A stretch of 62,974 bases of DNA from Polyangium sp. 15x6 (lineage in GTDB: Bacteria > Myxococcota_A > Polyangia > Polyangiales > Polyangiaceae), in assembly GCF_029960785.1 (NCBI RefSeq), contig NZ_JASBQE010000072.1:1-62974 (forward strand). The letters are read 5' to 3'. Of the stretch, positions 29,243 to 48,443 are shown one piece after another (positions within the stretch are counted from its first letter, which is position 1; each line of letters opens with the position of its first letter). The position numbers and the translations under genes were made by a program. The notes beneath the pieces are model-generated. The model saw only the letters and a list, made by a program, of their open reading frames with translations. It searched no databases and had not been told where the DNA came from.

Positions 29243-30049
29243 GAGGGGCTCCCTGGGCCGATGGCCCGGTGGTGTTCGTTGGTCGGCCACGACGCGGCGA
29301 TGCAACGTCGGGGTGGTCGTTGAACGCGCGCCGGAAAAATGCATTCAGGACAAGCAGGTTTCGGGCGCGCGAGGGTCGCTGAACGTTCGGAGCGAGTCGG
29401 GGGAGCGTGACGCGTGGGTGATCGAAGGTTCGATCGGGCGCGCGTCACGGTGACGCGAGAGCGCTCGAACGTCTGGCGACGCATCGGCGACGGTGGCGCG
29501 AGGGGCGATCGAACGGCTGGAGACGCAGAGGAGCCGACGACGCGGCGGTGATCGAACGTCTGGAGACGCAGAGGATACGGTGACGCGAGGCGGATCGAAC
29601 GCTCGATCGGGCGCGGGTAACGGTCACCCGAGGCGGATCGAACGTCTGGAGACGCGAGGGTAGCTACGGGCGCGTGGTCGTTCCGCAAAGGCCTCCTCGA
29701 ACGAGAGGAGCGCGCCCTCGTGATTCCGGAGCGGGCGCGCCGGGAGCAAGCGCGCACGGCACTCGCTCTTGCGTTGCGTGATCGCGCAACGTCCTGCCCT
29801 CGGCGCAAGTCGACGCTGGGGCGCGCGTGACGCGGAGCGCGCCGAACCCTGCGTGGCATGCGCATTGCGATGGCGGTGCGCATCGCGCCTCTCGAGCTGG
29901 TCGTCCGAGCGACGTGTCGCGTCCTCCATTGCGCGACAGAGCGACGAACCACCGCGCGAGACGTCCGCTCCCACGTGAGCCCGGCGCCGAGCCGCCGCCA
30001 TGGCGAGGCGCGCGCGCGAGACCTCTGCACGACAATCCTGGAGGAAAAG
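29243..30049. other. Long non-coding stretch between divergent genes
   Basis: About 800 bp without a believable gene. It holds the promoter of the helix-rich protein, the 43-bp tandem repeat (29419-29665) and the upstream region of the desaturase operon. ORFs on both strands are arginine/serine-rich shadows. The desaturase Shine-Dalgarno GGAGGA ends it. Confidence 0.6.
29419..29665. repeat. 43-bp tandem repeat, six units
   Basis: The core ATCGAA (TTCGAA-like in one unit) recurs at 29421, 29464, 29508, 29551, 29594 and 29637, a spacing of 43 bp with one of 44. Two unit types occur: ATCGAACGTCTGGAGACGC, which holds the palindrome CGTCTGGAGACG, and ATCGAACGCTCGATCGGGCG. As 43 is not a multiple of 3, it is not a protein repeat. 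It may be a minisatellite or an array of binding sites upstream of the operon. Confidence 0.8.
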
Positions 30050-31213
30050 ATGGACGTCGACGTTCGCGGGACGATGAGCGTGCTGCCCGGCATTTGCCAG
30101 CCCTTCCTGACCTGGTTGACGGGCAAGGCGCTGCCGGGGCAGAAGGCGAGCAACCATTCTCCTCACGGCCACCTGCTCGTGCCCGGAGCCTTCGTGATCG
30201 TGGGCGTCGCGGCGAGCGCGGCGCTCGTGAGCCGTGGCCTCGGCATGCAGCTTGGCCTGCTCCCGCTGACCTGGCTCGTGACGGTGTCCGGCGCGCGCAA
30301 GCTGCAGTTGATGATCGTACACCAGTGCGCCCACGGGACCTTTTCGGGGAGCCGCCGGGTGAACGAGCTCGTCGGCGCGGCCCTGTCGCTGCTGCTCACG
30401 ATCGAGCCGTTCAAGCGCTACCGCGCGAAACACATCGAGCTGCACCACGCGCAACACCACATGACCCGCCGCGATCCGACGGTGGTGTTCCTCTTCGACA
30501 AGGTCGGCCTCCGCCCGGGCATGAGCAAACCCGAGCTGTGGCGGCGCCTGCTCCTCACGCTCGTGTCACCACGTTATCACCTGGGGATGACGGCGGAGCG
30601 GATCGCGTCCGTCGCGCGCGGCTCGCCATCCGAGCTCGCGGCCTATGTGATTTTCTGGGGCGCCGTGCTCGCCATCGTCGTGATCCTCGGGGCCGAGCTG
30701 GTCTTCGCCGTCGCGTGGCTCGTGCCGATCGTGCTCCTTTACAACGTGAGCTCCTGCTTGCGTCTTTCGTCCGAGCACCTATGGCCCGCCCCCGTGGCCG
30801 AGAGGCAGCCGCCCGGCCGCGCCCTGGTCGCCAGCTATTCGACGGGCATTTTTCTCGGGGAAGCCACGCCCTCGCCCGAGCTCGGTGGCATCTCGGCCGC
30901 CGTCGCCTGGGCGCGGTGGGCGCTTCGTATGCTGTTCGTCCACCTGCCGGCGCGCCTGTTCGTGCTCGTCGGCGACACGCCATGCCACGATTACCATCAC
31001 CGCCACCCGCGATCGCGGGAGTGGATGAACTACGCCTACGCGCGCCAGAAGGATATCGATGCAGGCGCGCCCGGATGGCCGCCCTATACGGAGGTATGGG
31101 GGTTCGTGCCGGCCCTCGACGCAGCGCTCTCCGCGTTGTCTCGAACCTGCGAGACCGTCTACGTGGCAACACCGGCGCCGGTCCGCGCCGTGAATGGAGC
31201 GAGCCATGCGTGA
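30050..31213 (+). CDS. Membrane fatty-acid-desaturase-type diiron enzyme
   Basis: 387 residues with about five membrane helices and the histidine boxes that bind two irons: HQCAHG (91-96), HIELHHAQHH (128-137) and the C-terminal CHDYHHRHPR. Enzymes of this superfamily desaturate or hydroxylate acyl chains or other hydrophobic substrates in the inner membrane using oxygen. The ATG follows GGAGGA at a good distance; the upstream open frame is arginine-rich. It is the first gene of an operon with glutamate mutase subunits (8-nt overlap with the next gene). In that setting it could modify a lipid or an amino-acid-derived product. Confidence 0.9.
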   Translation: MDVDVRGTMSVLPGICQPFLTWLTGKALPGQKASNHSPHGHLLVPGAFVIVGVAASAALVSRGLGMQLGLLPLTWLVTVSGARKLQLMIVHQCAHGTFSGSRRVNELVGAALSLLLTIEPFKRYRAKHIELHHAQHHMTRRDPTVVFLFDKVGLRPGMSKPELWRRLLLTLVSPRYHLGMTAERIASVARGSPSELAAYVIFWGAVLAIVVILGAELVFAVAWLVPIVLLYNVSSCLRLSSEHLWPAPVAERQPPGRALVASYSTGIFLGEATPSPELGGISAAVAWARWALRMLFVHLPARLFVLVGDTPCHDYHHRHPRSREWMNYAYARQKDIDAGAPGWPPYTEVWGFVPALDAALSALSRTCETVYVATPAPVRAVNGASHA

Positions 31214-31640
31214 ATTCGAGCCCCTCGTTCTCCTCGCCGTCCCGGAATCGGACTGCCACGTCGTGGCCTGCAAGCTCCTCGAGCTCTATTTGAAGAAGCA
31301 TGGCTATCGGGTGATGAACCTCGGCGTCACGACGCCGAGCTCCGAGATCGCCGACGCGGTCGCCCGCCTTCGCCCGATCGCGGTCTTCATCAGCGGACAA
31401 AATGGTCACGCGCTGAGCGACCTGTCCGGACTGAAAGACGAGCTCGCGATCCGAGCGTGCTCCGTCCCCTTGTTCATCGGCGGCAAGGTCACCCTCGGGC
31501 CCGTGAGCGATGCGGACGAAGTCCAGGCGAGGTTCGCGGAGATTGGCTTCACGGTCCTCCAATCGTTCAACGACGCCCGCGAAGCGCTGCGAAAGCTCGT
31601 CCCGCCGGCGCATGGCGCCCGGCTGCCGGAGGCGGTGTGA
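31206..31640 (+). CDS. glmS: Cobalamin-binding small subunit of glutamate (methylaspartate) mutase
   Basis: 144 residues, about the length of GlmS/MutS. B12-binding fold: ESDCHVVACKLLELYL near the N terminus (lower-ligand His18), VFISGQNGHALSD in the middle and PLFIGGKVTLGP near the end, matching the DxHxxG, SxL and GG motifs. The Gly of DxHxxG is Ala21 here, an unusual change that may still allow His-on cobalamin binding. With the next gene it should carry adenosylcobalamin for interconversion of L-glutamate and (2S,3S)-3-methylaspartate. It starts inside the desaturase gene and ends in a TGATG junction with the large subunit. Confidence 0.88.
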   Translation: MREFEPLVLLAVPESDCHVVACKLLELYLKKHGYRVMNLGVTTPSSEIADAVARLRPIAVFISGQNGHALSDLSGLKDELAIRACSVPLFIGGKVTLGPVSDADEVQARFAEIGFTVLQSFNDAREALRKLVPPAHGARLPEAV

Positions 31641-33037
31641 TGAAGCTCGAGCTCGAGGACCTGCTCACCCTTCGCGGCGAGCTCTTCCGGAATGCGCCGA
31701 TCCCAGCGTTCCCGCTCGAGGAGACGCTCGCGGCGCTCGCGGCGCGGACGTGCCCGAGCGTCACGGAGGTCCTCGGCAGCGGGGGGGGCGCGCTCAAGAT
31801 CCAGCCGCGCTGCGGCGTCGGTGGCCAAGCGGAGATGGAGGAGCTCCTGCGGTTCCTCAAGATCCATGGCGAGCCGGATATCCTGACATTGACGATCGAC
31901 GCCTACACACGCCTCAACCTTTATGAAAAGGCGGCCACGACGACGGAGCTGAACGGCTATCCTCTGATCCATCACGGCGCGGCCCGCGCCGCCACGCTGG
32001 AGGCAGCCGTGGGCGTGCCGCTGCAAGTACGGCACGGCTCACCGGACGGGCGGCTGCTGGCCGAGGTGGCCTATCGCGCAGGCCTCACGTCATTCGAAGG
32101 AGGCGGAATCTCGTACAATCTCCCTTATAGCAAGGCCGTGCCGCTCCGGCGATCGCTGCGCGCCTGGCAATACGTCGATCGGCTGACCGGCCTCGCCTCC
32201 GAGGTGCAAACGATCGACCGGGAGACGTTCGGCCCGCTCACCGCGGTGCTGACGCCGCCGTCCATCAGCATCGCGATCAGCATCCTCGAGATGGCCCTGG
32301 CCGTCGAGCAGGGCGTGCGTGCCGTGACGATCGGCTATCCGGAGGCCGGTTGTTTCTATCAAGACATGGCCGCGCTCACCGCGATCCCGCGCCTCTGCGC
32401 CGAGCACCTGCGACGCCTGGGGCTGCCGGACGTCGAGATCTTCACGTCCTTTCACCAGTGGATGGGCGTGTTCCCGAAGGACATGACCGCCGCGCTCGCG
32501 CTGATCGCGTCCGGGGTCGTGTCGGCGGCGGCTGGAAAGGCCACGAAGCTCATCAACAAGACGCACCTCGAGGCCCACGGCGTCCCGACCAAGGAAGCCA
32601 ATGCCTTTTGCATTCGCCTCTGCAAGAGCCTCGCGAGCACGAGCGTGGCCGAGCAGGCAGGCGAAGCGAGCTCCGAGAGAGTCGCGGAGGAGCGCTCCTT
32701 CATCACGCGGGAAGTCGACGAGATCCTGGCGGCGGTCTACGACCTCGGCACGGACGATCTGGTCGAGTCCGTGGCCTCGGCATTCGAGCGCGGCCTGCTC
32801 GATATCCCGTTCTCGCCGAGCCGCTCCGCGCGCGGCGACGTCCTGCCGGCGCGAGGGCCCGACCGTTCGATCCGCTATCTCGATCCCGGGAGGCTCCCCT
32901 TCAGCGCCGAGACCCTCGCCCATAACCGGCGGAGGCTCGGCGCCCGCAAGGCGGACGATCATCAACGCATCATCAAGGACATCAACCTGCTGGCCGGCAG
33001 TCGGCTGCCCGGCCTGACTTCGAGGGGAACAACATGA
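31640..33037 (+). CDS. glmE: Glutamate mutase (methylaspartate mutase) large subunit
   Basis: 465 residues, near the usual 480 of GlmE/MutE. Family hallmarks: RHGSPDGRLLAEVAYRAG, SFEGGGISYNLPYSKAVPL, AWQYVDRL, FGPLTAVLTPPS and FHQWMGVFPKD. It forms the active barrel that, with the B12 subunit, rearranges L-glutamate to 3-methylaspartate by a radical mechanism. No methylaspartate ammonia-lyase or mutase-reactivating protein (GlmL) is encoded nearby, so fermentation of glutamate is unlikely and use of methylaspartate as a building block is favoured. The start overlaps the preceding stop, and the next gene overlaps by 4 nt. Confidence 0.95.
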   Translation: MKLELEDLLTLRGELFRNAPIPAFPLEETLAALAARTCPSVTEVLGSGGGALKIQPRCGVGGQAEMEELLRFLKIHGEPDILTLTIDAYTRLNLYEKAATTTELNGYPLIHHGAARAATLEAAVGVPLQVRHGSPDGRLLAEVAYRAGLTSFEGGGISYNLPYSKAVPLRRSLRAWQYVDRLTGLASEVQTIDRETFGPLTAVLTPPSISIAISILEMALAVEQGVRAVTIGYPEAGCFYQDMAALTAIPRLCAEHLRRLGLPDVEIFTSFHQWMGVFPKDMTAALALIASGVVSAAAGKATKLINKTHLEAHGVPTKEANAFCIRLCKSLASTSVAEQAGEASSERVAEERSFITREVDEILAAVYDLGTDDLVESVASAFERGLLDIPFSPSRSARGDVLPARGPDRSIRYLDPGRLPFSAETLAHNRRRLGARKADDHQRIIKDINLLAGSRLPGLTSRGTT

Positions 33038-34281
33038 GTGATTTGATCGTGATCGGGCCGCTCCGGACCAGCGATTCGCAGGGCTCCGATTTCGTGCGCG
33101 AGGCGAAGGCCCAGGGCCACCGGGTCATCGTGGTGACGTCGGCGTCGGAGCGGGCGCCCGAGGACGTGCACGCGCTCGCCGACCACCTCGTGCGTGTCGA
33201 GGCGGATATGGAATCGGACGAGGCGGCGGACGAGGCGGTCGCCAAGATCCGCGCGCTCGCCGTCGCGCCCGCGGCGATCTTCCCCGGCACGGAGCAGGGC
33301 GTCCTGCTCGCGGCGGTGGCGGGCGAGAGGCTCGGGCTGCACTCGAACGGCAGCGTCGTCGGGCGGGTGCTCCGGAACAAGTACCAGCAGCGCCGCATCC
33401 TCGAGCGACACGGGTTCCCGACGCCGTTTTTCCACCGATTCTCGACCGAACGAGAGCTTGCCGCGCTCTTGCCGAGGCTCACGTTCCCGGTCGTGCTGAA
33501 GCCCGTCAACGGTCTGAGCAAGGTGGGCGTGATGAAGGCCTTCGATGCCGACGGGCTCATGAAGGCCTTCCGCAACGGCCGCGAGCCTGCGCGAACCCGG
33601 TATCGATACCTCGAGATCGGTGCCGAGTGGCTGGTCGAGGAGTTCATCGAAGGCGACAAGCTGACCCTCGAGCTCATCGTCGCGGGCGAGGGCCAGATCA
33701 CCCCGCTCGTGCTGGCCGAGACCACCGTCGTCGGCGACAACTTCATCGAGATAGGGCACGCGCTGCCCTCGGCCCTTTCGCCGGAGACGCAGGCCGAGGT
33801 CCATGCCTATGGCGTCGCGGTCCTCGAGGCCGTCGGCGTGCGCCACGGCGTCGTGCATCTCGAGCTTTTGCGCCGGCGCGACGATGGGCGGCTCTTCGTG
33901 ATCGAGCTGAACGGCCGCATCCCCGGCGGACGGGTGGCGAAGCTCATCGAGGCGGCCTCCGGCAACAACTACTATCGCATCGTCCTCGCCACGCTCCTCA
34001 GCCGGCGCGTCCCTGCGCTGAAGCCGTTCCGTCGAGCCGTCGCCGTGCACTGGTTCTGCCGCACGACGGGCGAGGTCGCCGCGGTCGAAGGTTTCGACGA
34101 GCTCGATGGGTCTCCGGGTTTCCTGGAGAAATTCATCTCCGTGGGCGTCGGTGACCGGCTGGTCGCGTTCGGCGATGGCACCGACCGCGTCGGCTACTCC
34201 ATGAACGCCGCCGCGGACCTGGCGAGCGCGAAGGCCCGCGCGCGAGCCGCCGCGAGCTGCGTCCGTATCGTCTACAGATGA
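33034..34281 (+). CDS. ATP-grasp carboxylate-amine ligase
   Basis: 415 residues. There is an N-terminal pre-ATP-grasp domain (MSDLIVIGPLRTSDSQGSDF), then the ATP-grasp fold with FPVVLKPVNGLSKVGV (ATP-binding Lys and loop), WLVEEFIEGDKLTLELIV and the metal site HLELLRRRDDGRLFVIELNGRIPGG-like segment (Glu and Asn ligands). Such enzymes join an acyl phosphate to an amine, giving peptide-like bonds. Located directly behind glutamate mutase, it is the best candidate for coupling 3-methylaspartate to another acid or amine. Overlaps by 4 nt on both sides show a coupled operon. Confidence 0.9.
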   Translation: MSDLIVIGPLRTSDSQGSDFVREAKAQGHRVIVVTSASERAPEDVHALADHLVRVEADMESDEAADEAVAKIRALAVAPAAIFPGTEQGVLLAAVAGERLGLHSNGSVVGRVLRNKYQQRRILERHGFPTPFFHRFSTERELAALLPRLTFPVVLKPVNGLSKVGVMKAFDADGLMKAFRNGREPARTRYRYLEIGAEWLVEEFIEGDKLTLELIVAGEGQITPLVLAETTVVGDNFIEIGHALPSALSPETQAEVHAYGVAVLEAVGVRHGVVHLELLRRRDDGRLFVIELNGRIPGGRVAKLIEAASGNNYYRIVLATLLSRRVPALKPFRRAVAVHWFCRTTGEVAAVEGFDELDGSPGFLEKFISVGVGDRLVAFGDGTDRVGYSMNAAADLASAKARARAAASCVRIVYR

Positions 34282-35669
34282 CGCCCTCGGAGCGGCAAGC
34301 GACCACCATGGCAGTCCACACGAACCTCCTGAGCCGGCTCCTCGGTACCCAGCACGACCGTGCCTTCCCGGCGAGGCACCGCTGGCTCTTCGGCAGCTTC
34401 GGGGTGAACACGGCCGCGCAGTTCATGTTCACGAGCGTCCTCGCCGTGCAGCTCCACCGCCAGGGTATCGCGCCGCTCGGCATCGGCGTGGTCATGCTCC
34501 TGTTTCTCGTGAGCATGCGCTGCATGGGGCCCGTGTGCGGCGCGCTCGTCGACGCATACGGCCCCCGTGCCTGCCTGACGCTCAGCACGGCCCTCTCGGT
34601 CGTCGGTTATGGGGCGACCGGCCTCGCGCACGAGGTCTGGCACCACGGCGCGAGCCTCACCCTCCTCGGGTTTGGCCGCGGGCTCGACGCCGTCTGCCGC
34701 TCGACGCTGCTCGTGCAGGTGAGCGCGACGAAAGAGGAAGGCAGCCGGGCGCTCGCGTTCAATTATGTCGTCTTCAATCTGGCCGCTTCCTGCGGGCCGC
34801 TGCTGTCGTCGGCGGCGATCGCCTGCGGCGTGCCGCTCCAGGCGCTGCATGGCCTGGCGGCGTTGACATGCCTCACCACGGGCGCATCGCTCGTGCTCCG
34901 TTTCCCCTTTCCGGCGCGCGTCCTCGGGCCGTCGGACGGGCGCCCGTCCTTCCGGGGCCTCGCGGGCGCGTGGGCGGACCGGCGGTTCCGGTCGCTGGTG
35001 CTGGTGCTGCCCATGATCTGGTTCCTCTTCAGCCTCATGCACGTCATCGTCCCGGTGCTGCTGATGGAGGGCGCCGGCACGAGCGCGAGCGCGGTCTCGG
35101 CCATGTTCTCGCTGAACGCGGCCATGGTGGTGCTCCTCGGCTACCGGATCAACCGCTGGATGGTGCGCTTTCACGAGGAACGCGGCCGGTCGAAGCTCGA
35201 CGGCGTCGCGATCGGCGCGGCTTGCATGGGCCTGGCGCTGTTCTCCCTGGGCGCGGCGGCGTGGCTGCCGAACGCCACACCCTTGCTGTTCATGGCCCTG
35301 TTCACGCTCGGCGAGCTCTGCTTCGTGCCCATCGTCCAGGTCCTCGTGAACGAGTCGATCCAGGCGCGGGGCGCGACGCCGGGTCCGTATTTCGGGCTGG
35401 CGATGCTGGCCTGGGGCGTCGGCGGGGGCGCGAGCAACGTGCTCGGCGGCCTCGTCATAGAGCTCTGCCGCACGTATGGGTTTGTGCTCTTTCCGGCCGT
35501 CTTCGGCGTGACGTCGCTGATCGTCGCGGCCGTCTTCTGGCGCCTCTCGAACAGCTGGACCCGCGCCGCGGGCAAGGTCGACGCCGAAGAGGTCCGCCGA
35601 GGGACGGCTGGGCTCGATGGCATTTCGGTATCGACGCTTTTTCCCTGCGACGATAAAAGGAGCTCGTGA
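34278..35669 (+). CDS. Major facilitator superfamily transporter, probable product exporter
   Basis: 463 residues with about twelve hydrophobic helices and the inter-helix loop RINRWMVRFHEERG of MFS carriers. From its place in the operon it most likely exports the product or a precursor. ATG 34278 overlaps the ATP-grasp stop (ATGA). An in-frame ATG at 34308 (MAVHTNLLSRLLG) is an alternative start. Its stop overlaps the next start (GTGA). Confidence 0.88.
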   Translation: MTPSERQATTMAVHTNLLSRLLGTQHDRAFPARHRWLFGSFGVNTAAQFMFTSVLAVQLHRQGIAPLGIGVVMLLFLVSMRCMGPVCGALVDAYGPRACLTLSTALSVVGYGATGLAHEVWHHGASLTLLGFGRGLDAVCRSTLLVQVSATKEEGSRALAFNYVVFNLAASCGPLLSSAAIACGVPLQALHGLAALTCLTTGASLVLRFPFPARVLGPSDGRPSFRGLAGAWADRRFRSLVLVLPMIWFLFSLMHVIVPVLLMEGAGTSASAVSAMFSLNAAMVVLLGYRINRWMVRFHEERGRSKLDGVAIGAACMGLALFSLGAAAWLPNATPLLFMALFTLGELCFVPIVQVLVNESIQARGATPGPYFGLAMLAWGVGGGASNVLGGLVIELCRTYGFVLFPAVFGVTSLIVAAVFWRLSNSWTRAAGKVDAEEVRRGTAGLDGISVSTLFPCDDKRSS

Positions 35670-36844
35670 AGCCCGTCTCGCCGCTCCGTGTGACCGTGCT
35701 CTTCGCCCTCGCGATCGGGAGCCTCGCGGCGGCATGCGGCGGGGGCCCCCGACCTCCCGCCGCGAGAGCAACCGCCGAAGAGAAGAGCATTCCCTTTCGC
35801 CCGCGTCCCGGCGTCGAGACCGTGGATTGCCCGATCACGAGCGACGATTGTGCGAGCACGGACCCCAAAGCGTGCGAGGCAGGCTGCGGCGACGGGGACA
35901 TGGCGGCCTGCGTGGCGCTCGCGGCGTGGCACACGAAGCACCCGAAGGAGGGCGGCGGGCCGGCGCGGGGCATGGAGCTCCTGCGCATGACGTGCGAGAA
36001 GGGATTTGCCTGGGGTTGCCTCACGCTCGCCTGGCAAAAGGAGGCGACGTCTGGCGATCGAGCGAGGATCGAGACCAGGCTCCGAGCGGCCTGCGAGCGA
36101 GACTCGATGTGCGGGTGCTGGATGTATGGATCGGGGCTATCGTCCGACCCGCGCACGGCGGTGCGGGGGGTCGAGATGATCGGCGAGGCGTGCGCGCGGG
36201 GGGTGCTGACCGCGTGCGACGAGCTCGACATCCTCGTGGATATTTGTGATCGTGATCAGGCGCGCGGGGGGTTCTGCGAGCGGCTGCGGGAAAGCCAGCG
36301 CCTCCGGCCGCCCGATCCGCCGCCTCCAGAATGGTCGAGGACGCCGCTCCCGGCGGCGCTCGCGGGCTGCTTCCGGGTGAAAGCGCCGGGAGGGCCACGC
36401 GAGCCGAAGGGTTTTGGGTTGGGCACGCTGTATTGCTTCACGGATGGCCGCTCTTTCATGAAGCCGGTCGGCGAGCCCTGGGACGCATGGCCAGCGCAGT
36501 GGTCGTCGACGTCCGAGAGGAGCGTATTCAAGAACGAGGCGGTGGGCGAGCTGATGGAGCTACGCCAGGAGAAGTCCGAGATCGTTCTCCAGCGCGGAGG
36601 GTTCTCGGCGTGGCTGGAGCGGCTCGCGGGGCCGGAGGCGGAGGCGGCGCTCGCAGAGACGGCGGCATTGCCAGCGCTGGAGGAGGCGTGCGCGCGGGCC
36701 CGCCGGTGCGTGAGCGCGTTGCCGTACGGCTATGATGGGGTGATGCCCGAGAGCCTGCGCGAGTGCCTGGCGACGGAGAAGGGGGCGCGCGAGATGATCG
36801 AGGGGGAGCGCGGGAAGGAGGCGGCGGAGAAGGCTTGCCGGTGA
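35666..36844 (+). CDS. Cys-rich lipoprotein with Sel1-like segment
   Basis: 392 residues. The signal peptide VLFALAIGSLAAACGGG is lipidated at Cys24. The N-terminal half has many paired cysteines within helical repeats of Sel1/TPR type (KACEAGCGDGDMAACVALA, then LRMTCEKGFAWGCLTLAW). The C-terminal part is beta-rich, with FCRVK-like and helical ends. The GTG start overlaps the transporter stop and has AAAGGAGC before it. It belongs to the operon by spacing, but myxobacteria encode many such proteins in other settings, so a role in the pathway is unproven. Confidence 0.8.
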   Translation: MKPVSPLRVTVLFALAIGSLAAACGGGPRPPAARATAEEKSIPFRPRPGVETVDCPITSDDCASTDPKACEAGCGDGDMAACVALAAWHTKHPKEGGGPARGMELLRMTCEKGFAWGCLTLAWQKEATSGDRARIETRLRAACERDSMCGCWMYGSGLSSDPRTAVRGVEMIGEACARGVLTACDELDILVDICDRDQARGGFCERLRESQRLRPPDPPPPEWSRTPLPAALAGCFRVKAPGGPREPKGFGLGTLYCFTDGRSFMKPVGEPWDAWPAQWSSTSERSVFKNEAVGELMELRQEKSEIVLQRGGFSAWLERLAGPEAEAALAETAALPALEEACARARRCVSALPYGYDGVMPESLRECLATEKGAREMIEGERGKEAAEKACR

Positions 36845-36863
36845 GGATCCGGCGCTCCTGCCC

Positions 36864-39008
36864 CTACCGTCGGGACTTCTTCTTCCGTCGGCGAGGCACC
36901 TTCGTGTAAAAGCAATATCGCATCGCTTCGGCCGTCGGATACCAGGGATGCTCTCCCGGGCTCCCCGAGAGCTCGCGCGCGAAGGCCCAAGCGAGCGGCT
37001 TGGGGTCGACGACGGCGAAACGGAAGCCGTTCGCCAGGAACTGCTCGGACCATTCCCACAGGGTCGATAACGTGCTGACGCCGGAGAAGAGGTCGTGCGC
37101 GTCGATCACCTGCTGGGTCATGTCGCTGGCGATCGAACCGAAGAAGACGCCCCTCTTGCAGACCCGGGCCATCTCGCGGATCGCGCGGCCGACCTTCTTC
37201 TGCGGGACGTAACAGAGCGCGGTGTCGTAGAGGAAGTCGAATTCATCGTCGGGAAAGGGCATCGCACAAACGTCGCCGAGGGCGTTGCGCGCTTTCCACT
37301 TCTTCGCAGTCTTGCCGTGGATGTATGCGCTCTTCTCGATTCCCCAGGCATCGACGTCGAGCTTGGCGAACTCCTCGAGCGTGATGCCGTTCGCGGCGCC
37401 GCAATCGAGGAGCTTGTACGGAGGCTTCGCGCCCCAGATGATCTCGATGAGGTCCACGACGTACCGCGCGTCGAAGTACTCGTTGAACGAAGCCTCGTAG
37501 GAGCTCTCGCCGTCGTAGAAGTCGTGGTAGGCCGGGTCGAGGTCCTCGGACGGGGCGCCGTCGACGATGGTGATTGCGGGCCGTTCGTCCTCATGGGGTC
37601 GCTTCGTGGCCTGCGGTTCGTCGTCTTGCGCCTTCTCGGCTTCGGGGAGGTAGGTGCCGCGGAACACTTCGCTGGTCAGGCAATCCGTGGCGAAGTCGGC
37701 CGAGTCGAGCACCCCATTCAGCGTGGAGTCGAAGAGGTAGTCGCCGACCAGGAAGAGGCCGGGGTGCCGCTTCGGCTCCGGGACATGGCGCTCGCGCATG
37801 TCGGGCGTCGGGAACCCTCCGGGGAGGCCATTGACGCTCGAAAGCCACCGGTGAACACGGCCCTCGAGCGCGAGCTCACGGCCATGCCGGAGGGGCGGAG
37901 GGAGGGCGTCGAGCACTTCGCGGATGAGCGTCGCGTCATCGCTGTTCGCCAGGGTCTGCGCGGCGCTGCCCGCGAGCAGCCAGCCGAGGACGGCTTTGCC
38001 CGGGGCGTCGCCATAACGAGAGCCTTCGTCGTAGAGGCACGTGCCGCCGAAGGTGTCGATCATGAAGTACGAGCCCGGCACGGCGTCCCGCCAGAACGGG
38101 CGCGAGAACAGGACGGAGACGCGGAGGTAGTGGGCCGGGCGGTCGTAGTGCGCAACGTGCGTCTGCATGGCCCGCGCGAGGCGAGGATCCTTCCATTCGA
38201 GCATCGATAGCCGATCGTGCGGGAGGGCGATCACGACGAAATCGTACTCCGCCTCCTCCAGGTCGAGCCCATGCCGCGCGACGACCCGATACCCCCGTTC
38301 GCCGCGCTCGACCGAGACGACCCGCCGCCCGAGCCGAATGTCGGCCTTCACGAGGCCACTCAGGCGGTCGACGAGGCGTTCGATGCCCCCCTCGATGGTG
38401 TAGAGCCGCATGTAGCCGGGCACGTCCATCAGGAAGTTCTTGAGGCCATTCAGGCCATTGGTGAGGTGCGGCTCGGTGGCGATGTCGCTGTGGGCCGCGA
38501 CCTCGAAGTAGCGGCGCGCGTCTTCGTCCTTCAAGCGATCCAGGATCTCCCGGCAGGTCTTTCTGGCCCACGCATGCGCGTTGTCGTGGGTCCAATGCGA
38601 GTCGTAATAGTCCTCGCGACTGAGCTGCCGCATCGCCTCGGCGCGGAACGCCTCGACGGAGCTGGCCGTGTTATCGCCGCAGAGCTGCCGGATATCGGCG
38701 ATGTTGCGAAGGACCCGGTCGCCGAGGAGGACCGTGCCTCCAGACATCGGGAGGACGCCGAGCCCGAGGTGCTCGACGAGGGTGCGGAGCGGGTCGTACC
38801 CGATCATCGAATAGTCGTAAATCTCGGCAACGCCGGCCTCGTAGACCGGCCCTCCCGGCCCGAGCTTCGCGGTCGAGATCTTCCCGCCCAGGCGAGAGCT
38901 CGCTTCGTAGAGGGTGATCGCGCAGCGGTCCCAGAGCTTGTCATTGAGCATGTACGCGGTGAAGAGGCCCCCAGGCCCACCGCCTACGATCGCAACGCGT
39001 GCCGTCAT
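36864..39008 (-). CDS. Flavin amine-oxidase-type protein fused to a SAM methyltransferase
   Basis: 714 residues. The N-terminal domain (1 to about 450) starts RVAIVGGGPGGLFTAYM, the FAD-binding dinucleotide fold, followed by EASSRLGGKIST, as in amine oxidases, phytoene desaturases and protoporphyrinogen oxidases. An acidic linker (about 460-490) leads to a class I methyltransferase with motif I KLLDCGAANGITLEEF and DEFDFLYDTALCYVPQ. A fused oxidoreductase-methyltransferase is unusual. It might oxidise and methylate one small molecule. Its stop is 20 bp from that of the convergent lipoprotein closing the glutamate-mutase operon, so a role in the same pathway is possible. The start is MTARVAIVG; seven codons upstream are also open. 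Confidence 0.85.
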   Translation of the reverse strand: MTARVAIVGGGPGGLFTAYMLNDKLWDRCAITLYEASSRLGGKISTAKLGPGGPVYEAGVAEIYDYSMIGYDPLRTLVEHLGLGVLPMSGGTVLLGDRVLRNIADIRQLCGDNTASSVEAFRAEAMRQLSREDYYDSHWTHDNAHAWARKTCREILDRLKDEDARRYFEVAAHSDIATEPHLTNGLNGLKNFLMDVPGYMRLYTIEGGIERLVDRLSGLVKADIRLGRRVVSVERGERGYRVVARHGLDLEEAEYDFVVIALPHDRLSMLEWKDPRLARAMQTHVAHYDRPAHYLRVSVLFSRPFWRDAVPGSYFMIDTFGGTCLYDEGSRYGDAPGKAVLGWLLAGSAAQTLANSDDATLIREVLDALPPPLRHGRELALEGRVHRWLSSVNGLPGGFPTPDMRERHVPEPKRHPGLFLVGDYLFDSTLNGVLDSADFATDCLTSEVFRGTYLPEAEKAQDDEPQATKRPHEDERPAITIVDGAPSEDLDPAYHDFYDGESSYEASFNEYFDARYVVDLIEIIWGAKPPYKLLDCGAANGITLEEFAKLDVDAWGIEKSAYIHGKTAKKWKARNALGDVCAMPFPDDEFDFLYDTALCYVPQKKVGRAIREMARVCKRGVFFGSIASDMTQQVIDAHDLFSGVSTLSTLWEWSEQFLANGFRFAVVDPKPLAWAFARELSGSPGEHPWYPTAEAMRYCFYTKVPRRRKKKSRR

Positions 39009-39224
39009 GAACGCTCTCCATGATCTCAATTACCCATGGCGCGCGAACGAGGACGCGCGGCGCATCTGACAATAAACAAAGCGTTCTTCGACCGACTTTC
39101 CATGGCGCGAGAATGCACGATTGACGCCACCCCCCCTGTATCGAAGCGAGCCACCGAGGCCGAGCCATGCCGTCCAGGGCGACCGCGCCCGCAGATCCGT
39201 CCCGCTCCCCCGCTCGCTACGTCT
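39009..39224. promoter_or_regulatory. Left part of a 700-bp divergent intergenic region
   Basis: This stretch lies between the oxidoreductase start and repeat copy 4 and must carry the oxidoreductase promoter. I see no gene. A second gene-free stretch (39557-39707) lies between the repeat and the CHAT gene. Confidence 0.45.
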
Positions 39225-39556
39225 CATCTGGGAGGGGCCTCGCTGGGGCGTTGCCCCAGGCCCCACCAGGGGCTATCCGCCCCTGGACCCGGACCAGCGC
39301 AAGCGCTGGACCCGGGGTCGATGAACTGCGCGATGCGCAGTTCATCGAACAGGCCCGAGGCAAGACCAGCGACGACCCTGCCAACCGAGACAGCCGCGCT
39401 GCCATTTCAACTGGCAACGCTGCCCCTGGTCTTCCAACGGGCCCGTTGGAAGAACCGCGCATCGCGCGGTTCTTCCATCCCGAGTCCAGGGCTTGCCCTG
39501 GTCCGGGTCGAGGGGCGGATAGCCCCCGCGGGGTCCGGGGCAGCGCCCCGGCGAAG
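39225..39556 (-). repeat. Palindromic structured intergenic repeat, copy 4 (A to B on minus strand)
   Basis: Arm B is 39225-39347, the middle 39348-39446 and arm A 39447-39556. Arm A stem 4 reads GGAAGAACCGCGC-ATC-GCGCGGTTCTTCC: a T-A pair of the other copies has become C-G on both sides. The B end shares TCTCATCTGGGAG with copy 6. Unlike the others, this copy does not follow a gene end; it sits between two divergent gene starts. Confidence 0.9.
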
Positions 39557-39707
39557 CGCCTCCCTCCGGCACGCTGACTGTGTGGTCGTTCACCTCGGCT
39601 GCCAGCGTGCGCGGCGGAGGATCTTCGCAAGGTTGTCGCGGAGCGGCCGAGGAACTGGGTATGATGTCGAGCGCTTGTCTCGGTCGACTGTGAAAGGTGC
39701 TCGTACG

Positions 39708-42700
39708 GTGAAGATCTTGTTCGTCGGTGCCAATGGGATCGACACGTCCCGTCTCCGCATCGGCGCGGAGTTCCGGGACGTCCAGGCAGAGATCGAGCGC
39801 GCGCGGGCGAGCGGTGAGATCGAGATCCTGGCCGCGGTCGCCGTCACGCCGGTGGATCTGAACCGGCTTTTGCTCGAGTACGAGCCGGATGTCGTGCACT
39901 TCAGCGGCCATGGCACGCTTGCCCGCACCGAGCCCCCCCCGCGAACGGCGCGGGAGTTCGGCCTGCCCGACTCGGGGTCGCCGCCGAGCTCGCGGCAAGG
40001 GAGGCTTCTCCTCGAGACGCCCGAAGGCGAGGCCGCGCCCGTGTCGGCCGGGAGCTTGGCGCGGCTCTTCGCGATCCTGAAGACCCAGCGATGTGTCGTG
40101 CTCAACGCGTGTTTCAGCGCCGCCGAGGCCGCCTCGATCGCGGCGCACGTCGACTGCGTCATCGGAATGAAGGGCCCCATCGACGACAGATCGGCGAGCG
40201 TGTTCGCGGTCGGGTTTTACCAGGCCATCGCGCGCGGCAAGACGGTCAAGGCCGCCTTCGAGCTCGGGTGCAATCTGATCGAGACGTGCGGCCTGCCGGA
40301 CGCGGACATGCCGGAGCTCCGTGGACGCGTGGATCCGGCGACCGTGCGGCTCGTCGGCACGGGCAGGCCCCCCGCGATGGGCTGGAGGGACATCGATTCG
40401 ACGCCGCCCCTCGGCCTCTTCGTGACACCGCTGAGCACGCATGGCAGCCCTGACCTCTACCCGGCCATCCCCGAGGCGGCGCCCTGGCAGGCGGAGACGC
40501 CTCGCCGCGCGCCGAGGACCGACCGACCGACGTGGCGTTCGATTGCGCTCGACAGCGGCGCTCGGAGCCATACCACGCGCGCGGACGCCGAGCGCGACGA
40601 TGACGTGACCGGCCCCCCGAGCGTCTCTTCGAGGCTCCCCGCATCGGGCGAAAATCGCGTATGCACGGTGATGTTCGTCGACCTGGCCGGCGCCACGCGC
40701 GGGGCCGCGAAATGGAGCCCCGAGCGCCTCAAGGAGATATGCGACCGCCATTATCGCGTCCTCGAAGAGCAGGTGGAGGGCCTGGGAGGCATTGTCCAGC
40801 GGCTCGTCGGGGATCGGGCGCTCGCGCTTTTTGGCGTTCCGCGCGCGGCCGAGAACGACGTGGAGCGCGGGGTCGTCAGCGCGATGCGCACGCGCGAGGC
40901 GATGCGGCGCCTACCTCCGCTGCGGGAGCTCAAGGGAGCGCGCCCTTCGGTGCGAATCGGCGTGGCGACCGGGCGCGTGTTCGTGCAGATCGAGGGGACT
41001 TCCTCGGCCGAGATTTCGGTCGTGGGCGAAGCGACGGAGCTCGCGGCGCGGCTCCAGCAAATGGCTCCCGAAGGGGCGATCGTCATCGGCCGCGAGGCGT
41101 ACCGGCAGGTCATGGGCCTCGTCGACGTCGAGCCCCTGCCGCCGAGCCCGCTCGAAGGAGGCGACGGCGTCATCGCCGCTTTCCGTGTCCTCGCTCCCAC
41201 GAGCGTGCGCCCCGCTTTTGCGACTGCGGATTTTTACGGGTTCGAAACGAAGTTCGTCGGGCGCTCCGCGGAGCGGCGCTGGATCGCGGACGCGTACGAG
41301 ACCGCCGTGTCGGAGGTCCGTCCTCAGCTCGTGACGCTCGTCGGCGCGCCGGGCCTCGGACGAAGCCGGCTCCTGTCCGAGATCCTCACGGGGTTCCTTT
41401 CGCGCCCGGAGCCCCCCTTGATCCTGCTCGGTCAGGGCTCACCGCTCTTTCGAGATACCACGTACGGATTTCTCGCCTCGATGCTGCGACGTCGGTTCGG
41501 CGCCGAAGAAGGGGATTCTCCCACGCGGGTCCGACGGAGGTTACGGAGCGGCCTGCGATGGTTCCGGATGCGCACGGCCGCGGCAGAGCGCGCGGGGGAT
41601 TGGACCACCGCGCTCGGAATACCGAGCGACGAGGCGGATGAGCTGGAGGATGGTCTGCGCCAGCTCGAGGTCATTCTCGGGATTCATGAGGCCGGCGCGA
41701 CGCGCGATCGTTTTCCCGATGAGTCGTCGAACCTCGTCAAGCCCCGCATCCGGGCTGCCGTCTCGCGGCTGCTCCGGTTCGCCGCCCGAAGGACGCCCGT
41801 CGTGTTCGTGTGCAATCACCTCCAATGGGTGGATGATGCGAGCCTGGACCTCTTCGACGACGTGCTCCGGGATGGCGCGGACTTGCCCATTTTCGCCCTG
41901 TGCGGCACGAGGCCCGACCTGTTCGAGCGTCGGCCGCAATGGGGAGCGGATCGCGAAGGCCACCAGCGCATCGATCTCACTCCCCTGCCCCGCCGGTTCA
42001 TCGAGGAGATGATCCGCGATCGGCTGCGCGCCGTGCCGAGCCTTCCGCCGGACCTCATGAAGATCGTCGCCGATCGGGCCGAGGGATCTCCGAGGCTCGC
42101 CGAGGAGACCCTCCATCTCCTCCTGGATACGGGCGTGATCGAAGCGCGAGCCGACAAACCTTGGACCGTGCACGAGGATCGAATGGGTGAGCTCACCTTG
42201 CCCACCACGATCCAGGGCATCGTGCAGGAGCGCATCGATCGGCTCGGCGCCGATACTCGCATCGTGCTCATGCGGGCCGCCGTCGTCGGCCGTTCGTTCT
42301 GGCAGGGCGCGCTCGAGCACCTCAGCCGGGACATCGTCGGGCCCGAGGGATCCCTCGAGCGGCACCTCGATGTCCTGCGCGAACGGCTGCTCATCCGCCG
42401 CCGCCGGCCGTCGTCGATCGCGGGCGAAGAGGAGTATGTGTTCGTCGATTCGGCCACGTACGAGGTCGCCTACCAAATGCCGAGCCGCAAGGTGCTGGGG
42501 CCTCTGCACTTGCTCGTCGCGGAATGGCTCGAGGGCAAGATGGCCGATCAGAGCCCGGCGGTCGTCGCGGTGCATTACGATCGAGGCGGAGATCTGGCCC
42601 GCGCGGCCGCGGCCTACGAGCGGGCGGCGCACCACGCGGCGTCGCTCGGTGAAAATGTGGAGGCGCTTCGGCACCTCGAGCGGGCGCGAGACATTCATGA

Positions 42701-43886
42701 CGAGCTCGGCGCGGAGCAGGAGCTCGGTGAGCACGTGGAATGGGTGGTGGCCACGCCGATCGTCGTATCGGCGGCGGATCGCGTGCGCGTTCGGATCGAG
42801 CTCGGAGACGTGCTGCGTCGGATCGGGCGCCTCGACGAAGCCGAAGTGGCTTACGAGCAGGCGCGCGAACGGATCCCGCGGGACGAGCCGAGCGCGAAAA
42901 GCGAGATCGATTTCGCGCGGGCCCTGCGGTTCGATGCGCGGATCGACTATCGCCTCGCGTTGCTCCAGCGGGTGCGAGGTTCGCTCGAAGCGGCCCGCGC
43001 GCTGGTCGAGCGTGCCATCACGCGGGCGACCGAGGCGGGGGCGCACGAGGAGACGCCGCCGATGCTGGCCGTGCTGGTCTTCCTCCACCGGCGCCTGAAG
43101 CAGCCGGATCGCGCGCTCGAGGCGGCGAGGAGGGGGCTCCGCATTTGCCGGTCCATTCCCAACCGCGACGAGCCGTGGAGAATGAACGTGGTGGAGACCC
43201 TGCTCGGCCTGGCCGTGGCGCTCCTGGGGAAGAAGAAGCTCGGCGCCGCGGAGCGGACGTTTCGTCAGGTCTCGCGCATGCTCTCCGAATCGGCACATCC
43301 GCATCAGGTCAGCCTGGCCTTGAACGGTATCGCGGGATTGAGGCTCGCCAAGGGCGATCTTCGAGGGGCTCGCGAGTATCTGCTGCGTTCGCTCCGGCTC
43401 AAGGAGCGCGCGGGGGATCTTCACCAGCTCGCGATCGCGTACAGCAACCTCGCCGAGGTCGAGCTGCGTTTGTCGGAGACCAAAGCCGCCGTCGAACATG
43501 CGAAGAGGAGCGTCTGGCTCGGCGAGCAGGCTCGGGCGGGGTATGACCTGGCGGACATGTACAAGAACCTCGCGCAGGCTTCCCTCGCCTCGGGCGACCT
43601 CGATGGTGCCCTCGACGCAGGCTCGAGAGCGCTGGCCATCGCCGGCGAAACGGGGAAGTTCTACCTCAAGGACGTCGCTTCGGCCGTCGCCCAGAGCTGC
43701 GCGCAGGTGGCCAAGAAAGCGACACCGGGCTCCGATCTCCATACGAAGGCGCAAGGCGTGGCGCGAAGCTTGCTACGGATCCTGAACCGTTCTGCGGACG
43801 ACCCGGACCTCGGGCAACGATCCATGGAATGGCGTTCGCTCGTCGCACCGCTCCTCGAGCAAGCGGACGAAACCCCCGTATCTTGA
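39708..43886 (+). CDS. CHAT-cyclase-AAA-TPR signalling/effector protein
   Basis: 1,392 residues. The N-terminal CHAT (caspase-like) domain has VVHFSGHG (His68) and CVVLNACFSA (Cys135), both catalytic residues kept. A class III nucleotidyl cyclase domain (about 318-500) has VMFVDLAGAT (Asp325) and GIVQRLVGDRALALF (Asp369), but GDG is GDR and the transition-state Asn of TVNLAARL-like motifs is Glu (GEATELAARL). The AAA-type ATPase has GAPGLGRSRLL, Arg552 in place of the Walker A Lys, and a Walker B written VVFVCNHLQWVDD, lacking the acidic pair. C-terminal TPR repeats run from about 950 to the end. GTG 39708 is chosen; GTG 39690 is an alternative. It looks like a protease switch with degenerate nucleotide modules. 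Confidence 0.85.
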   Translation: MKILFVGANGIDTSRLRIGAEFRDVQAEIERARASGEIEILAAVAVTPVDLNRLLLEYEPDVVHFSGHGTLARTEPPPRTAREFGLPDSGSPPSSRQGRLLLETPEGEAAPVSAGSLARLFAILKTQRCVVLNACFSAAEAASIAAHVDCVIGMKGPIDDRSASVFAVGFYQAIARGKTVKAAFELGCNLIETCGLPDADMPELRGRVDPATVRLVGTGRPPAMGWRDIDSTPPLGLFVTPLSTHGSPDLYPAIPEAAPWQAETPRRAPRTDRPTWRSIALDSGARSHTTRADAERDDDVTGPPSVSSRLPASGENRVCTVMFVDLAGATRGAAKWSPERLKEICDRHYRVLEEQVEGLGGIVQRLVGDRALALFGVPRAAENDVERGVVSAMRTREAMRRLPPLRELKGARPSVRIGVATGRVFVQIEGTSSAEISVVGEATELAARLQQMAPEGAIVIGREAYRQVMGLVDVEPLPPSPLEGGDGVIAAFRVLAPTSVRPAFATADFYGFETKFVGRSAERRWIADAYETAVSEVRPQLVTLVGAPGLGRSRLLSEILTGFLSRPEPPLILLGQGSPLFRDTTYGFLASMLRRRFGAEEGDSPTRVRRRLRSGLRWFRMRTAAAERAGDWTTALGIPSDEADELEDGLRQLEVILGIHEAGATRDRFPDESSNLVKPRIRAAVSRLLRFAARRTPVVFVCNHLQWVDDASLDLFDDVLRDGADLPIFALCGTRPDLFERRPQWGADREGHQRIDLTPLPRRFIEEMIRDRLRAVPSLPPDLMKIVADRAEGSPRLAEETLHLLLDTGVIEARADKPWTVHEDRMGELTLPTTIQGIVQERIDRLGADTRIVLMRAAVVGRSFWQGALEHLSRDIVGPEGSLERHLDVLRERLLIRRRRPSSIAGEEEYVFVDSATYEVAYQMPSRKVLGPLHLLVAEWLEGKMADQSPAVVAVHYDRGGDLARAAAAYERAAHHAASLGENVEALRHLERARDIHDELGAEQELGEHVEWVVATPIVVSAADRVRVRIELGDVLRRIGRLDEAEVAYEQARERIPRDEPSAKSEIDFARALRFDARIDYRLALLQRVRGSLEAARALVERAITRATEAGAHEETPPMLAVLVFLHRRLKQPDRALEAARRGLRICRSIPNRDEPWRMNVVETLLGLAVALLGKKKLGAAERTFRQVSRMLSESAHPHQVSLALNGIAGLRLAKGDLRGAREYLLRSLRLKERAGDLHQLAIAYSNLAEVELRLSETKAAVEHAKRSVWLGEQARAGYDLADMYKNLAQASLASGDLDGALDAGSRALAIAGETGKFYLKDVASAVAQSCAQVAKKATPGSDLHTKAQGVARSLLRILNRSADDPDLGQRSMEWRSLVAPLLEQADETPVS

Positions 43887-43909
43887 TCCCCCAAGGGACG
43901 AGGTCCACG

Positions 43910-45352
43910 ATGTCGATTCGACGCTGCCTATCCTTCGCGCTGACGATCCTTGGTTCCCTGTTGGCGACGGGTTGCACGGAAGAAACCGAGCCCGTCACCT
44001 GCGCAACGGAAGATCAACAGGGCGGCGTATGCCGAGGTGTCCCCGCAACGGGGGCTTGCAATGCTGACGCGTCAACCACGGACATCACGTGTTCAAAGAC
44101 GGTCGAGGTGGACGACGATGGGGAGCTCGGCTCCGCGATCGACGCAGCCACGGCCGGCACGTGCATCGTGCTCGGCGCGGGGAGTTATGGCGCCGTCGTG
44201 TTGCCGGGAGGCGTCAGCCTCGTGGGGCCATGCGCCGACGAGGTGAAGGTCAAGGCGGTGACGGTCGCGGCTGGCGAGGGCTCGGTCCTTCGGGGCCTGG
44301 AGATCGGATCCGGCGGGCTTTCGCTCGACGGCGCGCAGGGCGTGCGTGTGGAGTCCGTTCGCGTGAACGGCGCGACGGCGGCGGCGATCAAGGTCCAGGC
44401 GGGAGCCGAGGTCACGATGGTCGGCTCGACGGTGCAAAACGGCGCCCTGTACGGGATCTTCGCGGACGACGGCGCCTCCGTGACGATCGAGGGAAGCGTC
44501 ATCCTGGGCCAGCAGGGCTCGGGCATCGCGACGACGTGCAGCGGAGGATGCGGCGCGTGCGCCGCGCGACCCAGTCTATCGGTCACCGACAGCATCATCC
44601 GCAATAACCACGTCGGTGGCGTCGACCTGTTCACGACGGATGTCGTGATGAACAACGTGGATATCCGAGGGACGCTTCAAGGCGAGTCGTTCATGACGTT
44701 CAAGGGCGGCGGCGGCGCTTCGATCGCGGCGTGCTCCACGGTGATCGAGGCGAGGAACCTGCGCATCGAGGACAACTTCGCGTACGGGATCTTGATCGAC
44801 GCTTCGACGGCGAGGCTCGGGGATCAGGACGATGCGGAGGACAGCGTCGTCATCCGAGGGAACAGCATCGGGATATGGGTTCAAAATGGCGCGGACGGCG
44901 GGGTCTCGGAGCTGCATAACGGCAGGGTCGAGAACAACAAGGGCGTCGGCCTGGGGATCAAGGGGGAGACGCAGGGGTTCATTTTCTGCCGTTCGAAGGT
45001 CGTGAACACGCTGGAGGACAACCTTCCCACGGACGGCGCGAGCAGCGAGCCGGTGGGTCATGGCATTGTGTGGCGGAACCAGGCGAGCGTGAAGCTCGAG
45101 GATGCGACCATCAGCGGGAGCAGTCGGGTCAGCGTGCTGATCGACGGGCCCATGGGCACGATGGGGAGCATGCCGAGCATTTTGAAGAACGTGACGCTCG
45201 GTGGAGGGGACGAACTGAAGGGGATCTGGCAGCAGAATTTGCCGGCAGGAGGGATGCAGCCGATGGTGGAGAATGCGCCGGCGATTCAGACGGATGTGGG
45301 GGAGAGGTTTTCGGTGCCGAGTGCGCCGAACCTGACGATGATCAGCCCGTAG
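43910..45352 (+). CDS. Parallel beta-helix lipoprotein
   Basis: 480 residues. The signal peptide SFALTILGSLLATGCTEE has lipobox ATGC. A short Cys-rich N terminus is followed by repeated beta-helix rungs (VRVESVRVNGATAAAIKVQA, VTIEGSVILGQQGSGIAT, VVIRGNSIGIWVQNG) of the right-handed pectin-lyase-like fold. No catalytic pectate-lyase residues were recognised, so a surface adhesin or binding protein is more likely than an enzyme. It begins 23 bp behind the CHAT gene and may be cotranscribed with it. It converges on the next, also beta-helical, gene. Confidence 0.8.
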   Translation: MSIRRCLSFALTILGSLLATGCTEETEPVTCATEDQQGGVCRGVPATGACNADASTTDITCSKTVEVDDDGELGSAIDAATAGTCIVLGAGSYGAVVLPGGVSLVGPCADEVKVKAVTVAAGEGSVLRGLEIGSGGLSLDGAQGVRVESVRVNGATAAAIKVQAGAEVTMVGSTVQNGALYGIFADDGASVTIEGSVILGQQGSGIATTCSGGCGACAARPSLSVTDSIIRNNHVGGVDLFTTDVVMNNVDIRGTLQGESFMTFKGGGGASIAACSTVIEARNLRIEDNFAYGILIDASTARLGDQDDAEDSVVIRGNSIGIWVQNGADGGVSELHNGRVENNKGVGLGIKGETQGFIFCRSKVVNTLEDNLPTDGASSEPVGHGIVWRNQASVKLEDATISGSSRVSVLIDGPMGTMGSMPSILKNVTLGGGDELKGIWQQNLPAGGMQPMVENAPAIQTDVGERFSVPSAPNLTMISP

Positions 45353-48224: not shown

Positions 48225-48443
48225 GGCTTTCTCCATGGCCACAGGGAAAAATAGGCCATGCGCGATCGTACCATGGGGTCCACCTGAACCGCGAAGCTCA
48301 CAATCGAAGACGCTCATGTCGTCGATGAAGTGCGAGCCGGCCCTCCTTTCCCGCCAGCGCCTCCGCTCCCGCGCCCGCTTCCGCTCCCCGCTTCACCTCG
48401 GGACACGTTCGGCGCTAAGGTCCGCCCAAAGGAACGACCCCGT

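Follow-up and report, generated by a model that had tools for sequence, protein, structure and literature searches.

What does a gene that joins a flavin oxidoreductase to a methyltransferase do beside a mutase operon? Such a gene lies in the window, i.e. the whole stretch of 62,974 nucleotides from Polyangium sp. 15x6 that was analysed here, and an earlier note made from the sequence alone had left two answers side by side, a late tailoring enzyme of the operon or a separate system. The reading that we favour, with a probability of about 0.5, is a bifunctional enzyme that would oxidise and methylate a small molecule, the product being exported in the two larger lineages of its family, and that would work independently of the mutase operon in the window.

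The fusion gene and its flavin domain

The earlier note had described a single chain of an amine-oxidase-type FAD domain and a class I SAM methyltransferase. Indeed, one uninterrupted minus-strand frame runs from the ATG at 39008 to the stop at 36864, encodes 714 residues and matches Pfam models for both halves above their cut-offs (Table 1). The alternative longer start, a TTG at 39029, is less likely, since the N-termini of the relatives align with the equivalent of MTARVAIVGGG and a GGAGAG element lies 5 nt upstream of the ATG. The GC content by codon position (0.66/0.45/0.87; the values for the methyltransferase part and the CHAT frame described below were out of phase and are left out) follows a coding pattern like that of the neighbouring genes, which together with the relatives speaks against a chance frame. 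The gene is convergent with the operon as previously noted; the gap needed correction from 20 bp to the 19 bp that separate its stop codon from that of the preceding plus-strand frame, which ends at 36844. No terminator-like site was found in 36600-37100.

Table 1. Positions in the window of the fusion gene, its parts and the adjoining operon.
Feature	Positions	Strand	Basis
Whole fusion gene, 714 aa, ATG at 39008	36864..39008	-	ORF; start supported by relatives
Shine-Dalgarno-like GGAGAG, 5 nt before ATG	39014..39019	-	read by eye
FAD amine-oxidase-fold domain, residues about 1-448	37665..39008	-	PF01593 at 13-440; predicted fold
GGGPGG dinucleotide-binding motif, residues 9-14	38967..38984	-	invariant in 20 rows of alignment A4
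HYLR, residues 293-296, Arg296 at amine-oxidase Lys position	38121..38132	-	97/97 aligned members
Linker, residues about 449-490	37539..37664	-	pLDDT below 50 over 453-503; poorly conserved
Class I SAM methyltransferase domain, residues about 491-706	36891..37538	-	PF13649 and PF08241
SAM motif I, LDCGAANG, residues 534-541	37386..37409	-	sequence and alignments
392-aa frame, convergent with fusion, 19-bp gap	35666..36844	+	no Pfam/NCBIfam match at E <= 0.01
MFS transporter, last operon gene with a recognised domain	34278..35669	+	Pfam
Desaturase-family protein, mutase B12-binding subunit, mutase E subunit, ATP-grasp ligase	29858..34281	+	Pfam/NCBIfam

Which chemistry could the flavin half carry out? 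Residues 13-440 match the Pfam model Amino_oxidase (PF01593; E 5.8e-30, 105.4 bits against a curated cut-off of 19.8), as do all 21 members of alignment A2. In an AlphaFold2 model built with alignment A4 (mean pLDDT 76.4, pTM 0.64), residues 1-452 are predicted to adopt the fold of solved L-amino acid, monoamine and putrescine oxidases and of protoporphyrinogen oxidase, and Foldseek on an earlier model returned the same flavin fold class. The best structural match was 7eme, titled a putative Leptospira L-amino acid oxidase (Z 27.6, rmsd 4.4 A over 398 residues), with monoamine and putrescine oxidases at Z of about 25-27, protoporphyrinogen oxidase at about 25-26 and many matches tied within 1. 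The structural alignment rows (VIA-align) cover about residues 1-452, i.e. the flavin domain and not the methyltransferase fold, and the solved oxidases share only 14-21% identity with the window protein there.

Two features of the fusion set it apart from these solved oxidases, the attached methyltransferase and an arginine in place of a lysine. An active-site lysine near the flavin N5 matters in amine oxidases. In a profile alignment, Arg296 falls on this lysine of putrescine oxidase and of an L-amino acid oxidase, and the position is arginine in all 97 aligned family members; classical O2-dependent amine oxidation would therefore be the less likely flavin chemistry. We propose instead that dehydrogenation or isomerisation takes place at the FAD domain, with electrons taken from the substrate or shifted within it. 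Among NCBIfam models, none spans the whole protein and the best scores come from protoporphyrinogen-oxidase models, far under their cut-offs; with 46.4 bits against 517 and 32.3 against 97.85 for the equivalogs, a protoporphyrinogen oxidase was rejected.

Relatives and lineages

Is the fusion a peculiarity of one genome? Relatives were sought by scanning for WEWSE, a motif of the methyltransferase half, written as a degenerate DNA pattern; the scan returned at least 118 loci. Among the matches listed, 106 of the 118 carry a relative of the window protein and 12 do not; 105 match at E <= 1e-10. Also among the matches listed, 81 of the 106 reach both protein ends with the domains in the same order, 78 of them in one alignment piece at 42.3-50.4% identity, and the other 25 are cut by the locus end or broken. 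That 81 of 106 loci share this arrangement puts the fusion beyond chance. Across alignments A3 and A4 identity is 42-52%; the frameshifted locus L032 was left out of alignments A2-A4, and L181, with an 8-residue gap, out of A4. In L032 and L043, both from Bradyrhizobium, the match is broken into two frames, with the junction near residue 643 of the window protein.

The titles of these loci, among the matches listed, are mostly Bradyrhizobium, with Afipia, Tardiphaga, Rhodopseudomonas, Nitrobacter, unplaced Hyphomicrobiales and Xanthobacteraceae; a single Frankia-titled locus is probably mislabelled. The closest relative among the matches listed, L125, is 50-52% identical and comes from a 2.6-Mb Hyphomicrobiales metagenome assembly (G379). 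As the 118 loci are a minimum and the WEWSE pattern favours one lineage (lineage I; lineage II reads WQWSE), the family may be spread more widely than these titles show, and WEWSE is conserved within lineage I as a product of selection by the scan motif.

A three-row profile, A1, matched 11 of 398 genomes in the phylum of G379, so that the fusion is uncommon even where present, and 23 of 297 in its order, 24 distinct genomes in all. It added lineage II (12 loci, L156-L167) and a divergent lineage III (one genome; L168 and L172), both with the domain order of the window fusion. The match lies in one place in 23 of the 24 genomes; a stop was counted in four, and on recheck none fell inside the aligned part. 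In G423 (L154/L155) a frameshift or a sequencing error breaks the flavin domain near profile position 348, so that the fusion reads as two overlapping frames.

The search of the window's own phylum used a single sequence, that of G379's phylum a profile, and elsewhere single genomes only were searched. Within the window's phylum, the other 376 genomes held no counterpart at E <= 1e-10, the one match in 377 being the window's own. Of the five congeners searched, one has no match at E <= 1e-6, and the other four match weakly over the flavin domain, at 29-30% identity. Plasmids gave no match at E <= 1e-5; at E 10 there were 183 records, none covering 80% of the query, and the top one among the best 30 of the 183 covers 31%. 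Full-length scans yielded 25 pattern-matching stretches in genomic contigs and 4 in viral contigs, none a relative, and motif scans of viral contigs gave one match only, a helicase-like frame by eye. We found no paper on this family in the open-licence PubMed Central literature. The family is thus uncharacterised and, as far as sampled and as placed by locus titles and the order of G379, best represented in Hyphomicrobiales. According to the earlier note, a wide distribution together with a known, unrelated function would speak against its view; the fusion is widespread, and no known function was found.

How did the gene reach the window genome? In the trees of both halves, the window protein, L125 and lineage II stand apart from lineage I (support 99/95 and 100/97). 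L125 joins lineage II and not the window protein in the flavin tree (AU p 0.0165 against window plus L125); for the methyltransferase p is 0.193, compatible with either placement. L172 groups with lineage I in the flavin tree and apart from it in the methyltransferase tree, on long branches prone to such joins. The trees are compatible with joint inheritance of the two halves. The presence of the fusion in one of six genomes of the genus, together with known relatives in Hyphomicrobiales, suggests acquisition by transfer, as far as absence in a sample goes; the base composition of the gene carries no sign of it.

We consider it very unlikely that the contig is contamination and the gene that of another bacterium. 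The estimated contamination of the genome is 3.05%, and searches of the five congeners detected neither a full-length fusion nor, at E <= 1e-30 and without a control, the beta-helix protein encoded at 45363-48317, an absence from which we draw no island boundary; but the codon-position GC of the fusion resembles that of other window genes, and with about 52% identity to the nearest relative found, the gene is not stray DNA of those bacteria. This beta-helix protein is one of two convergent frames with right-handed beta-helix domains, the other lying at 43829-45352.

A probable exporter partner and the mutase operon

Do the relatives share a neighbourhood? Next downstream on the same strand, an ABC exporter is encoded in 93 of the 95 WEWSE loci with at least 500 bp there, among the matches listed; the exceptions are L125 and L107, the latter with only 674 bp downstream. 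The exporter follows the fusion in 21 of the 22 short loci from the profile searches (all but L168) and in 12 of 13 long loci (all but L172, from the same genome as L168). The short loci represent 22 of the 24 profile-search genomes, those left out being G379, i.e. L125, and the split G423; the three sets overlap in genomes, and their counts are not to be added. A recheck of L107, L168 and L125 at E <= 10 returned no exporter.

Upstream, the surroundings differ. Directly before the fusion on the same strand, rpoC is found in 55 of the 72 WEWSE loci with space for it (among the matches listed), in 7 of 22 short and in 2 of 13 long loci, and a TRAP-transporter permease in 0 of 72 (again among the matches listed), 12 of 22 and 9 of 13; both labels were confirmed by Pfam. 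Across the lineages, the exporters of G967 and G380 are reciprocal best matches: that of G967 (lineage II) finds the fusion-adjoining exporters of G380 and G605 at 495 and 499 bits, the next-best scores being 270 and 269, and that of G380 (lineage I) finds those of G967 and G803 at 497 and 499 bits, followed by 288 and 286. With cross-lineage best matches so far above the next-best ones and with different upstream genes, fusion and exporter are, by sequence comparison, an orthologous pair retained in two different surroundings. ABC exporters are common genes, but this orthology test speaks against chance. In the lineage II loci L169 (5554-6675) and L171 (5448-6503), an MBL-fold hydrolase follows the exporter (the L169 copy by Pfam and NCBIfam); the L171 copy was matched at only 3 fusion loci.

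The exporter is absent beside the window copy, where the convergent frame stands instead, and beside L125, L107 and lineage III, and the best exporter matches in the window genome, G379 and G826 reach only the background level of 258-278 bits; the whole family therefore does not require it. We propose that in the two larger lineages the product would be exported by the adjoining, dedicated ABC exporter, and that in the window, where this partner is missing, the fusion would be an accessory gene with start signals of its own, a neighbour of the mutase operon and not a member.

At 31194-34281 the operon itself encodes, in this order, the S and E subunits of glutamate (methylaspartate) mutase and an ATP-grasp ligase whose C-terminal domain is of the L-amino acid ligase type. 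Its mutase E is divergent, with 420 bits as compared to 696-722 in the three other phylum-sample genomes that have one. On the other side, divergent from the fusion, a large frame at 39036-43886 carries CHAT, adenylate/guanylate cyclase, AAA and TPR domains, with partial PADLOC matches to Pycsar cyclase models; its translation probably begins downstream of 39036. The other PADLOC matches, to a desaturase-like and a methylation-associated model, are likewise partial, and we propose no defence reading.

Could the fusion nevertheless be a late tailoring enzyme of the mutase/ATP-grasp operon, oxidising and methylating a small methylaspartate-containing peptide exported by the MFS protein? We consider this unlikely. 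The two are directly adjacent across the 19-bp gap, an exporter is nearby as in the relatives, and the fusion and mutase E are both missing in the genus-mates examined (five for the fusion, the two listed for mutase E) and both rare in the phylum samples (1 of 377 and 4 of 359 genomes). Since mutase E is likewise rare, the two could have arrived together. However, the opposite strand places the fusion outside the operon transcript, and the other mutase-E genomes, G035, G206 and G301, have no fusion match at E <= 1e-10, taking them to be part of the sample searched. Moreover, none of the five operon genes, the 392-aa frame or the CHAT protein, seven window neighbours in all, was found at the relatives' loci at E <= 1e-10, where all but 13 loci were at most 8 kb long and those 13 were 19.5 kb. 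Undetected neighbours, a recurrent ABC exporter and a fusion without counterpart in the phylum sample make a separate module likelier than a tailoring enzyme, so that of the two answers left by the earlier note the second fits better. The tie of the fusion to the mutase operon is thus weak, and the finding argues against assigning the gene to the mutase cluster from position alone.

The methyltransferase half and known fusions

Is the second half of the protein an active methyltransferase? Pfam matches Methyltransf_25 (PF13649; 3.8e-10, residues 534-620, 40.7 bits, cut-off 27) and Methyltransf_11 (PF08241; 2.9e-9, residues 534-621, 37.9 bits, cut-off 21.2). Acidic and glycine residues have roles in the class I SAM site, and the window copy keeps D535, G537, G541, E558 and D579. 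We propose that the tethered domain would methylate the same molecule on which the flavin domain acts, after or before the flavin step.

The conservation of these residues differs between lineages. In 97 aligned rows (including L181, and L173 and L177, which are in no other alignment; five of the lineage I rows are truncated at the N-terminus), G537 and G541 are invariant and position 558 is E in 96 rows and D in one. The window copy, L125 and all 9 lineage II rows retain both D535 and D579, whereas in all 85 lineage I rows D535 is replaced by Val or Ile and D579 by Ser, Thr or Ala, and in L172 the two are His and Ala. Methylation may therefore not be the function of the whole family. The NCBIfam DVU_1556-family and ArsM-like methyltransferase models match 14 and 6 of 21 family members; at E <= 0.001, the window protein matches neither. 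Two rows, probably L032 and L043, have different residues at 651 and 653.

We speculate that the family may be a module for the synthesis and export of an undescribed metabolite, lying beside the core gene rpoC in most sampled Nitrobacteraceae, where the methyltransferase would have been repurposed once its acidic SAM-site residues had been replaced, while the window copy would retain an ancestral two-step activity and use another exporter; we give this extension a fairly low probability. That the methyltransferase half is mainly structural or regulatory, with the flavin half doing the shared chemistry, appears quite unlikely: such a role would suit a domain still kept in 85 of 85 lineage I rows and L172 after the loss of both aspartates, but not their retention in the window copy, L125 and lineage II, nor the near-complete conservation of 537, 541 and 558.

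Do known enzymes combine these domains? The earlier note knew of no characterised enzyme of this make-up, and our searches found none that is exactly alike; but the make-up is not without precedent, because MnmC and the plant cyclopropane synthases are also FAD/SAM-methyltransferase fusions. MnmC has the opposite domain order and a methyltransferase of a different family, and no MnmC model was among the 13 NCBIfam matches at E <= 0.01, though the library contains one. For plant cyclopropane fatty acid synthase, the reported domain order is the same as in the window fusion; the 9 Pfam matches of the window protein at E <= 0.01 include Methyltransf_25/11 and no cyclopropane-synthase model. MnmC, which like the window fusion has both domains in one chain, is reported to be a two-domain FAD-dependent oxidoreductase/SAM-dependent methyltransferase whose domains act in sequence on tRNA (PMC9976899). 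In cotton GhCPS, an N-terminal FAD-binding oxidase domain of unknown function is fused to a C-terminal SAM enzyme, and deleting that oxidase domain cut the output of cyclopropane fatty acids by about 70% (PMC3132707). Both enzymes demonstrate that fusions of this kind exist and can function; by the tests made, neither represents the family of this protein.

The shared domain order with the plant enzymes would also suit a lipid-modifying enzyme whose exporter moves the modified lipid, and the best NCBIfam score of the neighbouring exporter is to an MsbA-related model, at 388 and 421 bits where the cut-off is 780. The methyltransferase domain, however, spans only about 215 residues and matches PF13649 and PF08241 and no cyclopropane-synthase model at E <= 0.01 in Pfam, which makes this reading unlikely. 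The oxidise-and-methylate enzyme that we favour would be a conserved, uncharacterised two-domain protein with a probable exporter partner, present in Bradyrhizobium, Rhodopseudomonas and Nitrobacter. Because these hosts can be grown and mutated, its function is open to test by gene removal and metabolite comparison, and the copies with and without the acidic SAM-site residues offer a natural test of which half works.
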